Below, in pieces: positions 3,792 through 19,007 of a DNA stretch of 21,022 nucleotides. The notes beneath the pieces are model-generated. The model saw only the letters and a program-made list of their open reading frames with translations, ran no database searches and was not told the DNA's origin. Within the stretch, counting starts at the first letter, position 1. Every line of letters begins with the position of its first letter. The stretch covers positions 1-21,022 of the IMG/VR virus record IMGVR_UViG_3300018411_000080. One strand, 5' to 3'. Origin of the DNA: a virus. Made by a program: the position numbers and the translations under genes.

Positions 3792-3809
3792 AAGATGGAT
3801 GGAGTTCAA

Positions 3810-4298
3810 ATGTCCGATGAAGAAAGGATACGTTTGTGGCGGAGCTTGTTTACATACAACTCCAACGGCACACTATTCCGAAAATTCAAGTCTGGGATGT
3901 CAAAGCAGACGGGAAGCCCTTGTGGAAGAGATAAGAAGTACCTAAACGTCCGTGTGGGTAAGGGTTTTGAGTATGTGCATACTGTTATATTTGGGATGCA
4001 CTACGGATACCTGCCAAGTCAAATTGACCATAAGGATAGAAACGGCCTGAACAACTCCCCGAGCAACCTGAGGGCCGCCGACAATAGGACAAACAATTGC
4101 AATGTGCCAAAGGCAATTGGTAAGTCTGGGTATCGGGGTGTCGCCGTATCTGCAACTGGTGTGTTTACAGCAAAGATACGGGCAGGAAAACGCCGCATCC
4201 ACTTAGGTACTTTTAGCAGTGCAAAAGATGCTGCAATTGCGTACAACCGCAAGGCAACAGAACTGCATGGTGAGTTTGCCATTCTCAATAGGATATAG
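3810..4298 (+). CDS. HNH homing endonuclease with AP2 domain
   Basis: This 162-residue protein is a second free-standing HNH-AP2 endonuclease. The HNH motif is IDHKDRNGLNNSPSNLRAA near residues 70-90. The AP2 domain follows (GYRGVAV, FTAKIRAGKRRIHLGTFSSAKDAAIAY). I chose the ATG at 3810 because GGAG lies 8 bases upstream; an in-frame ATG at 3795 would add five residues but has no such site. It sits between primase-helicase and DNA polymerase, and its stop is 2 bases before the polymerase ATG. Homing endonucleases often sit beside the gene they target, so the intron-bearing polymerase is a likely target locus, but this is inference. The core motif matches the paralogue at 893-1363; the N-terminal third differs. 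Confidence 0.87.
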   Translation: MSDEERIRLWRSLFTYNSNGTLFRKFKSGMSKQTGSPCGRDKKYLNVRVGKGFEYVHTVIFGMHYGYLPSQIDHKDRNGLNNSPSNLRAADNRTNNCNVPKAIGKSGYRGVAVSATGVFTAKIRAGKRRIHLGTFSSAKDAAIAYNRKATELHGEFAILNRI

Positions 4299-4300
4299 AA

Positions 4301-5753
4301 ATGTACCCATGGAACAACATGTTCGCCAGTGACATTGAAGCAACTGGCCTGCTCGAAGATATGAAGCGGCAAGAAAACCCGCACCTGCACAACATCGGGT
4401 ATATTGATGTAAAAACAGGTGAGGAAGTTTGCATCGAGTGGACAGACAGAGCCCGCATTCAAGCATTTCTGGACACTGGTCCGACGCTCATAATGCACAA
4501 CGGCTACACCTTTGACTTCGAGGCCCTGACCTTCTTAGGCTACGACGTTTCGAAGTGCACGTGCATAGACACCCTGTACATAAGTTGGTACCTTCGTCCG
4601 CGTCAAATGATGCACGGCTTGGCTAACTATGGGGAAGAGTTCGGTGTACACAAGCCGGAAGTTGAGGAATGGGAAAACCAACCTCAAGAAGTCTACAACC
4701 ATCGGGTGATGGAAGACTGCAAGATTCAGTACAGACTCTGGGCCCATCAGTGGCAGGAGCTGCTAAAGATTTACAAGTCACCGGAAGAGGCGAAGCGATT
4801 CGTTGCCTTCCTCATGACCAAGGCACGGCAACAGGTTATCCAACAGCGCACACGTTGGAAGCTGAATAAGACCAAGTGCCAAGCTTTCATCGACAAAGTT
4901 ACGCCGATGATTGACGAAAAGGTTCTGGCACTGGAGGAATCCATGCCGCGAATCACTGAGTACAAACTCATGAATCGCCCAGCAAAGTGTCACAAGAAAA
5001 ATGGAACCCTGTCCGCAACCGGCCTCAAGTGGAAGGCGATTTGCGATGCAAACGGTTTGGACTGGAAAGACCCAGATTTGGTAATCAAGACCATCAAAGG
5101 GTACAAAGCTCCAAATGCAGGTTCTCACGTACAAATCAAAGATTGGCTGTTCAGCCTCGGCTGGGTTCCGCAAACCTTCAAGTTTGTTCGCGACAAAGAA
5201 ACTGGCGAGACTCGCCAAATTCCGCAGACCACAATCAAGGACGATGACGGCAACCCCGACATCTGCCCGAGTTTGCACGAACTTGCAGAGCTGCACCCAG
5301 ACAAGGGTGTGGAACATTTGATTGGCCTTGGTGTATACAAACACCGACTGACAGTTGCGAATGGCTTCATGAAAGCTGTTGACGATGAAGGTTTCCTCAC
5401 AGCACGTTGCGGTGGCCTCACCAACACACTGCGACTCAAGCACCGAGAGTTGGTAAACCTGCCGTCCATTCGTGTATTTGGTGGGGAAGAGCTTCGTGGC
5501 ATGTTGGAAGCGGAGAGTGAAGACTTCGAACAACTAGGTTCTGACCTGTGTTCGCTGGAAGACCGCTGCAAGCACCACTACCAGTGGGACTATGACCCAG
5601 AGTACGTGAAGAAGCAGCTTGCTGATGACTACGACGCCCACTTGGCGCTGGGTGTTATCGGTGGTTTCATCACCGAGAAGCAGAGTCAAGACCACAAGGA
5701 CAAGATTGCAAAGTGCAAAGACCGTCCAATGTTCAAGTCCACCAACTATGCGT
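4301..5753 (+). CDS. DNA polymerase, family A (T7-like), exon 1
   Basis: This exon encodes residues 1-484 of a polymerase that is 643 residues long once spliced to 6401-6879 (T7 gp5 is 704). A 3'-5' exonuclease domain comes first: Exo I D11/E13 in SDIEATG, Exo II in MHNGYTFDFE (H66, N67, D72), and Exo III D139 in RVMEDCK. Polymerase motif A is GSDLCSLEDR, with its Asp near residue 414. Motif B begins at RPMFKSTNYA and is cut by the intron just after this Ala codon plus one T. Read without splicing, the frame stops at TAA 5753-5755 and the enzyme would lack most of the catalytic palm. The Tyr in KSTNY takes the place of E. coli Pol I F762, as in T7. AGGAT precedes the ATG. Thioredoxin dependence cannot be judged. 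Confidence 0.94.
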
Positions 5754-6400
5754 AAAATGATGCGCATGTAAAACTCCTCTAATTCGGTGGAACTCTCTAT
5801 GAGACAATACCGAGCGAAGCTTGAAATGAAAAGAACATATAAACCAAAGTTATGTGCTTGTGGTGTAGAATTCACACCAAAAGGTCCAGCGAGCCTGCGT
5901 TGTTCGACATGTGCAAAATCATCCGCACAAGATGCTCGTGAAAAGGCATACTTTAAGTATGCAAAGAAGCGTGGCATAAACTACGGAGCCGGCACTGGAA
6001 ACCATAACTCACACCACAAAGGGAAGGACAGCAAATGTTATTCCTCTGGGACTGGTGAATATGTTCGAGCAAGAGTTGAAATGCTTGCCGAACTTAAGTG
6101 CTGTGAGAGGTGCAACAAAGACTTGCAAACTGTGGGTAGTTTCGAACGTGTGATACACCACCGAGACCACAACAGAAGCAACAACGAGAGGATTAATCTC
6201 GAACTGCTTTGCAAGCGTTGCCACCAAATAGAGCACGAATGTTTTGAACATTTCTTGAACGTGTAACGACTATCCGAAAGGAGTAGGGCCAAGTGGTTCG
6301 AAACGGGGAGCACCGAAAGGTGGTGATATAGTCTACTCTGCATGGCGACATGCAGCTGCGAAAGCGGACCAAGCCTAACGAACTTGGTTGAATATAAGTG
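5754..6400 (+). ncRNA. Group I self-splicing intron in the polymerase gene
   Basis: This 647-base intron splits the polymerase at motif B. Its limits follow from four independent observations. The exon ends in T (5753). The intron ends in G (6400). Joining them restores the frame and creates TGT (Cys) in NYACQYGAG. Exon bases ATGCGT (5748-5753) pair with GCGCAT (5762-5767), giving P1 with a U-G at the splice site. Other pairings: P3 ACTCCT (5773-5778) with AGGAGT (6279-6284); P7 GACTAT (6268-6273) with ATAGTC (6328-6333); a CACC-GAAA-GGTG hairpin (6311-6322); P9 CTGCATG-GCGA-CATGCAG (6338-6355); a GAAA hairpin at 6356-6367; and a P9.2-like stem 6368-6388. The segment 5779-5835 resembles the P4-P6 core of the T4 td intron. 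The HNH gene sits in the P6 region. The subgroup (IA2-like) is inferred. Confidence 0.92.
5799..6266 (+). CDS. Intron-encoded HNH endonuclease
   Basis: This 155-residue protein is most likely the homing enzyme that moves the intron into intronless polymerase genes. The N-terminal part has a small zinc-finger-like module (CACGVEF then CSTC, about residues 16-40). The C-terminal half is the HNH module: CCERCNK, then IHHRDHNRSNNERINLELLCKRCHQIEH (two CxxC pairs and the HH, N, H catalytic set). GTG at 5787 and ATG at 5826 are alternative starts; the latter (MKRTYK) would keep the ribozyme core untranslated. With the 5799 start, the coding sequence overlaps the predicted P4-P6 core. The stop at 6264-6266 lies 1 base before P7, so translation into the core would affect folding. 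It lacks the AP2 domain of the two free-standing HNH genes. Confidence 0.9.
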   Translation: MRQYRAKLEMKRTYKPKLCACGVEFTPKGPASLRCSTCAKSSAQDAREKAYFKYAKKRGINYGAGTGNHNSHHKGKDSKCYSSGTGEYVRARVEMLAELKCCERCNKDLQTVGSFERVIHHRDHNRSNNERINLELLCKRCHQIEHECFEHFLNV

Positions 6401-6879
6401 GTCAATATGGTGCCGGTGTTGCAACAGTTGCTCGCACTGCGAAGTGTGACCAAGCAACAGGTGCCCGACTGCACAAAGCATACTGGGATTTGAACTGGTC
6501 CATCAAAGAGATTTCTGCGAATACGAAAGTCATCACAGTCGATGGCCAGATGTGGCAGCAGAATCCGGTGAACAAGTTCTGGTATTCCCTGCGCACCGAG
6601 AAAGACCGTTTCTCAACTTTGTGCCAAGGCACTGGTGCGTATGTGTTCGACATCTGGTGCAACAACATCATTGCAATCTGTAATGAGCGTTGGGGCCGTG
6701 ACCCGAAACTGTCCGGTCAATTCCATGATGAACTTATTCTGCAAGTTCGCAAAGGTAATCGCGAACTGTGGGAAGGTGTTCTGCATGAAGCGATGGCTCG
6801 CACCAACAAAGAGCTCAAGCTCAATCGTGACTGCGCATGCGATGTGCAGTTCGGCGACAACTACTCAGAGATTCACTAA
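6401..6879 (+). CDS. DNA polymerase, family A (T7-like), exon 2
   Basis: This exon completes the polymerase: the second half of motif B (QYGAG, in place of IYG in E. coli Pol I) and motif C, QFHDELILQV, whose HDE is near residue 593 of the spliced protein. The frame is open upstream to a TTG at 6388, but those bases belong to the intron, so this is not a separate gene. The spliced coding sequence is 1,932 bases including the stop. The stop TAA overlaps the ATG of the next gene (TAATG), indicating translational coupling. Neither half would have polymerase activity alone, so splicing is required for replication unless the halves associate. Confidence 0.94.
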
Positions 6880-17222: not shown

Positions 17223-17696
17223 ATGCCCGTACAAACTTGGTCCATCAACACTGGTGAAGCCTACGCAGGCGAACAGTATGGTCTGGCCACTACCAACTCC
17301 CAACGGCTGACCTACAGCGTCGATGCCGAAATGTCTGAATACGGCGTTGCCGTTCAGCAAGGTGTTGCCTCCAACACCATCAAAGTTGGCCACAATGTTG
17401 GCGAAATCCTCGGCATCACCATGCGTGAACTCAAGCTGGAATCCAAGACCCGTCCCGGTGACGGCACCGTCCTGATTCCCAAAGGTCAGCCGCTGGCTGT
17501 CATGATGGACGGCCCGGTCATGGTCAAGCTGGTCACCGCCATCACCGATGCCAACATCGGTATCTCTGCAACTGGCGGTTTCGGTGGCGTGGCTGCTGGC
17601 TACACCAAAGCTACCAACGTCAAGGCTCTGCGGTTCCCGGCCAAGGCCGGTGACGTAATCCCGGTCATGGTCATCCTCGTTGGCCCAAAGCCGTAG
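17223..17696 (+). CDS. Head decoration/cement-like protein, short form
   Basis: This 157-residue protein is the product of normal reading. It resembles capsid cement or decoration proteins (DUF2190-like), which stabilise the mature head: an early Gly-rich segment (NTGEAYAGEQYGLATTNS), YGVAVQQGVASNTIKVGHNVG, MRELKLESKTRPGDGTVLIP and a C-terminal GDVIPVMVILVGPKP. AAGGT precedes the ATG. It lies directly before the capsid gene. The stop TAG (17694-17696) comes 3 bases after a CCCAAAG slippery site, so part of the product is probably extended (see the 17223-17983 entry). The cement assignment is from position and composition; confidence in the gene itself is high. Confidence 0.82.
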   Translation: MPVQTWSINTGEAYAGEQYGLATTNSQRLTYSVDAEMSEYGVAVQQGVASNTIKVGHNVGEILGITMRELKLESKTRPGDGTVLIPKGQPLAVMMDGPVMVKLVTAITDANIGISATGGFGGVAAGYTKATNVKALRFPAKAGDVIPVMVILVGPKP

Positions 17697-17983
17697 CCCC
17701 TGCTCCTGCGCTAGTCTTCACAACTGACTTGGCAACAACCAAGACAGTTGCGACTGGTGTGCCTTTGGATTTGGCTGTGGTGGCAACTGGTGGTGTCGGA
17801 ACTCTTTCCTATGTCTGGAAAAAGAGTGGCACTGTCATTGCTGGTAAAACAACTGCCAGCATTAGTGTCACTGCAACCGCTGCGGCGGGGGATGCTGCAA
17901 CCTATACCTGCGAAGTCACCGACTCCGCAACTCCGACACCGACGAAGATTACTTCCACAGCCTGTGTCGTAACAATTTCCTAA
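17223..17983 (+). CDS. Cement-like protein with Ig-like domain by -1 frameshift
   Basis: A -1 slip at C CCA AAG (17684-17690) would carry ribosomes past the TAG into an open frame ending at TAA 17981-17983. The product has 253 residues: 156 of the cement-like protein, a Pro/Ala linker (AVAPAPALVFTTD) and an Ig-like domain. The domain shows the strand pattern of the fold, with core Trp in LSYVWKKSG and the Tyr-x-Cys of DAATYTCEV. It has no ATG or Shine-Dalgarno sequence; the only nearby start, TTG 17729, lies inside a hairpin. Ig-like domains added to phage head and tail proteins by -1 frameshifting are known and are thought to aid surface attachment. The slip itself is inferred. Confidence 0.83.
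17684..17690 (+). promoter_or_regulatory. CCCAAAG -1 frameshift slippery site
   Basis: The heptamer fits X XXY YYZ exactly in the zero frame (C CCA AAG). After slippage the two tRNAs re-pair on CCC and AAA. It lies one codon before the zero-frame stop, and the -1 frame is open across the junction and encodes an Ig-like domain. Confidence 0.8.
17721..17750 (+). promoter_or_regulatory. Strong hairpin downstream of the slippery site
   Basis: CAACTG-A-CTTGG (17721-17732) pairs with CCAAG-A-CAGTTG (17739-17750): 11 bp broken only by one A-A mismatch, with the loop CAACAA. It starts 30 bases after the slippery site and buries the TTG at 17729. It may stimulate frameshifting, block internal initiation, or both. 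The spacing is longer than the usual 5-9 bases. Confidence 0.55.
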
Positions 17984-17993
17984 GGAAATCCGA

Positions 17994-19007
17994 ATGCCTA
18001 AGATGGTAAAACTGCTCGACGGCTCTGAATTTGAGCTGGACGATGCGCTGGTACGAATTCAAGATGCCGGCACCGTCGTTCTGAACGATGACAATGCTGT
18101 GTTCTTCCAGCGCCAGCTTGAGTTCATCGAAGCTCAAACCTATGACACCCTGTATCCGGAACTGGAAGCGCGTGAAGCTTTCGGTGTGGATACCACCGGC
18201 GGCCCGGGCGTAACTACCCTGACCTACCGTTCCTACAACCACGTTGGCAAAGCTCAGGTCATCAACGCCCGAGCAACCGACCTGCCGAAGTCCAGCCTCT
18301 CCGGCAAGGAATACTCCATCACCGTCAAGTCTGTTGGCACTGCCTACGACTACGACATCGACGAAGTTGCCGCTGCCTCCGTAACTGGCCTCCCGCTGGA
18401 AGCTCGTAAGGCCATGGCCGCAACTCGCGGTTACGAGCAGTACGTGAACTCTACCGCTTGGTACGGTGATGCGGCCAACGGTTTCGTCGGGTTCTTCGAC
18501 CATCCGGACATCACCAAAGCCAACGTTGCTGCTGGTGCTGGTGCCGGTACTCCCACCAAGTGGGCGCTGAAGCAACCGACCGAAGTTATCGCCGACCTGA
18601 CCACCGCAGTGTCTGCCATGTACAGCTCCACCATGAAAATCATGCGTCCGGAAGAAATCTGGATGCCGGTTGAGCACGAGCAGTACATCTTCAACACTGC
18701 ACGTTCCGCGCAAAGCGACATGACCATAGGTCAGTTCTTTATCGCGAACAACCAGTTCATCAACTCCCGCGAGAAAATCAAGGGTCTGAACGCAATCAAG
18801 GGTCGCGGCGCTTCTGGTGCCGACTGCTTCATTGTGGTCTGCCGCAAGGCTGGCGGGATGAACACCTTCCGTCTGCGGGAGCCGCTGCCGCTGACTTGGC
18901 AACCTGTGCAACTGCACGGTCTCGTCTACGAGATTCCTGGTCGCGGTCGCTTCGCTGGTTTCCAAGTCATGTATCCGGCTGCGCTCTCCATCAACTCCGG
19001 TATCTGA
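17994..19007 (+). CDS. Major capsid protein (DUF2184 type)
   Basis: This 337-residue protein matches DUF2184, the HK97-fold major capsid family of myoviruses with DUF1073 portals. Family features are the N-terminal RQLEFIEAQTYDTLYPEL (about 35-52), a central VGTAYDYDIDE segment, ARKAMAATRGYEQYVNS, PEEIWMPVEHEQYIFNTA and C-terminal LPLTWQPVQLHGLVYEIPGR. TAAGGA lies 7 bases before the ATG, overlapping the stop of the Ig-like frame. Many preferred codons and a terminator-like hairpin after the stop fit very high expression. No separate scaffold gene is seen; the DUF2213 protein probably fills that role. Confidence 0.92.
   Translation: MPKMVKLLDGSEFELDDALVRIQDAGTVVLNDDNAVFFQRQLEFIEAQTYDTLYPELEAREAFGVDTTGGPGVTTLTYRSYNHVGKAQVINARATDLPKSSLSGKEYSITVKSVGTAYDYDIDEVAAASVTGLPLEARKAMAATRGYEQYVNSTAWYGDAANGFVGFFDHPDITKANVAAGAGAGTPTKWALKQPTEVIADLTTAVSAMYSSTMKIMRPEEIWMPVEHEQYIFNTARSAQSDMTIGQFFIANNQFINSREKIKGLNAIKGRGASGADCFIVVCRKAGGMNTFRLREPLPLTWQPVQLHGLVYEIPGRGRFAGFQVMYPAALSINSGI

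Follow-up and report, generated by a model that had tools for sequence, protein, structure and literature searches.

A conserved -1 frameshift site is predicted to add exchangeable Ig-like domains to the capsid cement protein of a group of Chaseviridae phages

How can an Ig-like domain be translated when its reading frame lies directly behind a capsid gene, is displaced by -1 from that gene, and has no well-placed start codon of its own? This question is raised by IMG/VR virus record IMGVR_UViG_3300018411_000080, of which positions 1–21,022, here called the window, were analysed. The window is a fragment of a Cleopatravirinae-like myophage of the Chaseviridae, the family and subfamily of its nearest named relatives. 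Its early region seems rich in mobile endonucleases. Two ORFs at 893–1363 and 3795–4298 resemble HNH/AP2-type homing endonucleases from their translations, and a candidate group I intron (5744–6355, + strand), which carries an HNH-type ORF (5787–6266), splits the DNA polymerase gene (4301–5755 and 6388–6879). The candidate intron scores 25.5 bits (E 0.0073) against Rfam RF00028, below the gathering score of 50.

The gene that precedes the Ig-like domain (17223–17696, + strand) encodes in the zero frame a structural cement, or capsid decoration, protein of 157 aa. The protein matches PF22758 over residues 4–148, nearly the full family length, with 54.5 bits (curated cut-off 27); it also matches phrog_563, and the profile of its relatives finds PDB chain 8hdt_G, which is named 'Cement'. 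Genes for terminase, portal and a DUF2213 head maturation protease lie upstream, the major capsid protein gene (17994–19007, + strand; PF09950, phrog_264) lies downstream, and a tail sheath gene is found at the window end. The preliminary description of this DNA had spoken of a head protein; that it is a virion head gene stands, but the product is refined to a cement protein rather than the major capsid protein. Both the family match and the gene order beside the major capsid gene are shared with E217 gp24 and Pam3 gp6, although the PF22758 family entry lacks an Ig-like extension and the window's protein has one. In E217, trimers of the cement protein of this family occupy the outer capsid surface (PMC10329688), and by analogy the same would be expected of the window's protein.

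The zero-frame ORF ends with GTT GGC CCA AAG CCG TAG. Within this end, the heptamer CCCAAAG (17684–17690, + strand) is read in the register GGC-CCA-AAG-CCG-TAG, i.e. as C_CCA_AAG, which is the register needed for a simultaneous -1 slip. A single codon separates it from the zero-frame stop codon TAG (17694–17696, + strand) that ends the short form. Beyond a -1 slip, the sequence reads CCC-AAA-GCC-GTA-GCC-CCT and remains open up to TAA 17981–17983. Translation of the two frames gives products of 157 aa and 253 aa, the latter composed of 156 shared residues and 97 residues after Lys156; the phase of the site, its distance from the stop and both product lengths agree with what had first been described. 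In-phase X_XXY_YYZ heptamers occupy 10 of the 5,225 codon positions in the window's genes, and only that at 17684–17690 is near a stop, which speaks against a chance occurrence. C_CCA_AAG has been reported to be highly shift-prone in Escherichia coli, A_AAG alone being a weaker site (recoding review PMC5009743).

Joined to Lys156, the -1 frame extension (17690–17983, + strand; 97 residues and the TAA) begins with a Pro/Ala-rich linker, AVAPAPAL (17690–17713, + strand), and continues into the Ig-like domain (17714–17980, + strand). The peptide directly after Lys156 is AVAPAPALVFTTDLATTK, encoded upstream of every start codon in the -1 frame; its counterpart in phiEcoM-GJ1 is AVTPPPAPTVSAVAAAVTADASTSDATVTVDK, and almost every relative retains a Pro-rich linker. 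The domain shows the Trp and Tyr-x-Cys landmarks (YVWKK ... ATYTCEV). The extension matches phage major tail and Hoc-like decoration families (phrog_158, 4e-21; phrog_2973), and a PDB sequence search returned decoration proteins (5lxk, 8zvi), 9ncf and further Ig-domain proteins of phages, with E-values down to 1.8e-18. The Pfam Ig_2 match falls below the curated cut-off (24.7 bits vs 27). AlphaFold2, applied to the extension alone and not to the 253-aa fusion, gave a confident all-beta domain (pLDDT 89.8), the first strand of which begins at extension residue 9. The best structural matches of this model in Foldseek include chains from the Moo19 and N4 capsid reconstructions (TM 0.76–0.80). The linker and the full Ig-like domain that had been recognised from the letters are thus borne out by translation, profile, PDB and fold matches. 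In a phage of another type, a probable major tail protein has an in-frame Ig-like domain (L033 2845–3123) 59% identical to that of the window, and the domain thus moves from one carrier to another.

Comparison with relatives, as the preliminary description had proposed, strongly supports programmed -1 frameshifting. The comparison set comprised 27 related loci with an extension, drawn from 21 isolate records and six other IMG/VR contigs. At each of them, the cement stop is followed immediately by an extension of ~95–121 aa in the -1 frame, which is kept open. An in-phase X_XXY_YYZ heptamer stands close before the stop in 26 of the 27, and in 24 it is exactly CCCAAAG. L045 has CCCAAAA (about 2961–2967), and L052 has GGGAAAA (2961–2967) 22 nt before its stop; at all other loci with a heptamer the stop follows after 0–1 codons. 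The sole exception is Proteus phage Myduc, which has only A_AAG (L020 2268–2271) before TAA. No in-frame cement–Ig fusion was found among the 27 loci. The 21 more distant cement genes that lack an extension, which belong to Aeromonas, Shewanella, Vibrio and other phages, hold no heptamer in their last 15 codons; there, the capsid gene begins 15–75 nt on where its start was found. A scan of all viral contigs for the junction pattern brought up six newly seen contigs, one of which is a true relative (L069) and five of which are chance matches. Judged by these sequences, the frameshift arrangement characterises the phage group as a whole.

Codon-position and pN/pS comparisons of the extension in 17 pairs and in all three frames indicate that purifying selection acts in the -1 frame only; in that frame it is seen in all pairs tested. 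Most of the variation within the 17 pairs falls at third positions of -1 frame codons. Between the window and L032, 10, 5 and 49 differences fall at codon positions 1, 2 and 3, and pN/pS is 0.12 in the -1 frame as against 3.5 and 2.2 in the other two. In 16 of the 17 pairs, pN/pS in the -1 frame is 0.12–0.34, with 0.52 for Berlingot/Fougasse, a pair with few differing sites; the other frames have higher values in nearly every comparison. Such constraint is difficult to reconcile with a decayed or accidental fusion, in which recombination placed an Ig-like domain out of frame and left it unexpressed. Ig-like domains do move between phages, and the frame in which one is found may reflect a chance landing, as is discussed in PMC5009743. 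However, the extension is open in all 27 loci and the slip site has been kept across a long divergence among related phages; selection and conservation together rule out a decayed fusion, to which we give practically no weight.

A different possibility is that the Ig-like domain is a separate small protein, translated from an internal TTG or GTG start coupled to the end of the cement gene. Codons of this kind are present in frame, and some records do hold the domain as a separate CDS (BSBP01 'Ig protein', Y2 gp67 and SSEM1 gp73). The earliest in the window's extension, TTG 17729, lies within a hairpin and has weak anti-Shine–Dalgarno complementarity (-1.5 kcal/mol), and the later TTG and GTG codons fall within the Ig-like domain, essentially as had been described. 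When start codons and anti-Shine–Dalgarno energies were listed in all relatives, no conserved or well-placed start with a Shine–Dalgarno sequence was found for the extension: the places of start codons are not conserved, the early ones have little complementarity, and four relatives contain no ATG, GTG or TTG in the first 50 codons of the extension. An internal start would also leave unexplained both the in-phase heptamer and the frame that stays open through it with a Pro-rich linker. It was rejected on the basis of this listing, and we consider it improbable. Conservation of the in-phase site, selection in the -1 frame and the lack of a credible alternative start together support the original proposal of a frameshift.

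Fusion of the two reading frames could in principle also arise through stop-codon readthrough or RNA polymerase slippage. The cement stops of relatives are mostly followed by C (UAGC, UAAC), and a stop codon followed by C is generally regarded as a weak termination context. Readthrough, however, stays in the zero frame, which closes five codons further on at TAG 17712, and it was rejected for this reason; CCCAAAG, for its part, is without the long homopolymer of a polymerase slippage site. Either route to the fusion is regarded as very improbable.

Two observations weigh against ribosomal frameshifting itself. Myduc keeps its extension without a full heptamer, having A_AAG only, and possible stimulators of slippage are weak. 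A hairpin at 17721–17750 (+ strand), identified by folding, is a putative stimulator; it lies ~30 nt past the heptamer, farther than the 5–9 nt at which a stimulatory structure is usually spaced from its slip site. L032 has a similar hairpin, whereas Berlingot and Fougasse lack it. Averaged over the group, the folding z immediately past the site (-1.39) is the lowest of 15 offsets, but is weak, and energies for an internal Shine–Dalgarno stimulator are near background. In all, no strong and conserved stimulatory element was found among internal Shine–Dalgarno sequences and downstream folding.

Comparison of relatives nevertheless leaves programmed -1 frameshifting well supported, and it is proposed, with a probability of about 0.92, that the cement gene has two modes of decoding. 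The majority of ribosomes would terminate at TAG 17694 and release the 157-aa cement protein. The others, a minority that hold tRNA-Pro on CCA and tRNA-Lys on AAG, would slip back by one base to CCC-AAA and read on in the -1 frame through the linker and the Ig-like domain, yielding the 253-aa form. We infer that the long and short forms would assemble together on the outer capsid surface, so that only a small part of the cement subunits would display an Ig-like domain, and that the displayed domain would probably bind weakly to cell surfaces or glycans.

Frameshift-appended Ig-like domains are known in phages, as the preliminary description had stated; T3 and A2 are examples (review PMC5009743). 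T3 gene 10B and Lactobacillus phage A2 resemble the present locus in that a slip site stands at the end of a virion protein gene and, through a -1 shift, a small share of the subunits gains a C-terminal Ig-like domain. They differ in their carrier, which is a coat or structural protein there and a cement protein with a predicted frameshift here, and in that here one slip site is common to a whole phage group and serves several domain types. T5 pb10 and the N4-type decoration proteins likewise place Ig-like domains on the capsid surface, and the window's domain is related to them by its sequence match to 5lxk and its fold match to the N4 and Moo19 chains. To our knowledge, the T5 pb10 and N4-type domains are fused in frame on all copies, whereas the window's domain stands behind a frameshift on an E217-type cement protein. 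The lambda-type tail assembly chaperone G/GT is a further parallel, a phage morphogenesis gene with a -1 slip at a similar heptamer near the stop, but in gene, position and product it is distinct from the cement frameshift. The window's gene sits between the protease and major capsid genes, and not between tail tube and tape measure, and it does not qualify as a tail assembly chaperone gene.

Across the phage group, the slip site is retained while the domain behind it changes. All-against-all comparison resolved four groups of extensions: one is large, and the others are the window's Ig group, that of L050/L052, and Myduc. Many relatives have a domain of another Ig type, Big_2/pb6-like, as their extension; a model of the large group (pLDDT 80.6) has matches to pb6, the tail tube protein of T5 (E 6e-4), and to the phi29 capsid protein. 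One slip site serves at least two domain types, and probably all four. On the cement-protein tree, the distribution of the extension groups needs seven changes against a minimum of four. Berlingot and Y2, for instance, have cement proteins that are 94% identical and extensions from different groups; their nucleotide identity falls to ~50% right past the slip site and is 100% again at about +306, at the capsid gene. Papaline/Mauresque and Aioli/EaPF9 exhibit a like drop and return, in both cases within the large extension group. The breakpoints of these swaps flank the extension, so what is exchanged is the segment from the slip site to the capsid gene. In Erwinia phage Fougasse (L017 2580–2909), an extra 330-bp ORF, absent in sibling phages, lies between extension and capsid gene, so this gap accepts further insertions.

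In the database records examined, no joined CDS for cement protein and extension was present. The extension appears instead as a separate hypothetical or 'Ig' protein, as a wrong-strand gene, or without annotation; the opposite-strand CDS over the extension in Erwinia phage Fifi44 (gp7; L013 2363–2590, - strand), for example, is probably spurious. Literature searches, largely limited to papers outside subscription journals, returned no description of frameshifting in any cement protein or for this Chaseviridae gene. Frameshift-added Ig domains on phage virion proteins were already known; the cement protein as carrier, and one fixed slip site for exchangeable cassettes, are new here. The frameshift extension corrects gene calls in many records and points, from sequence, to a second, so far unannotated form of the capsid surface protein made by phages of Erwinia, Pectobacterium, E. 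coli and others. The natural slip-site variants GGGAAAA, CCCAAAA and A_AAG are useful for studying how the level of frameshifting is kept.

With a constant slip site and changing domains, these phages allow two views to be tested cleanly by comparison: that frameshifting is selected for the dose of Ig domain that it sets, or that it is a by-product of where the domain landed. The swaps alone are no proof of such selection, because their breakpoints lie in conserved flanks and homologous recombination keeps the frame; the absence of any in-frame fusion points towards selection for frameshifting. The slip site may act as a conserved docking port, at which selection keeps a capsid surface domain at a low dose set by frameshifting and the domain present changes by cassette exchange between phages, a proposal for which we put the odds at even. 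Such exchange would perhaps change what the capsid sticks to. If the site does act in this way, it would argue against the view that Ig domains land behind frameshifts merely by chance.
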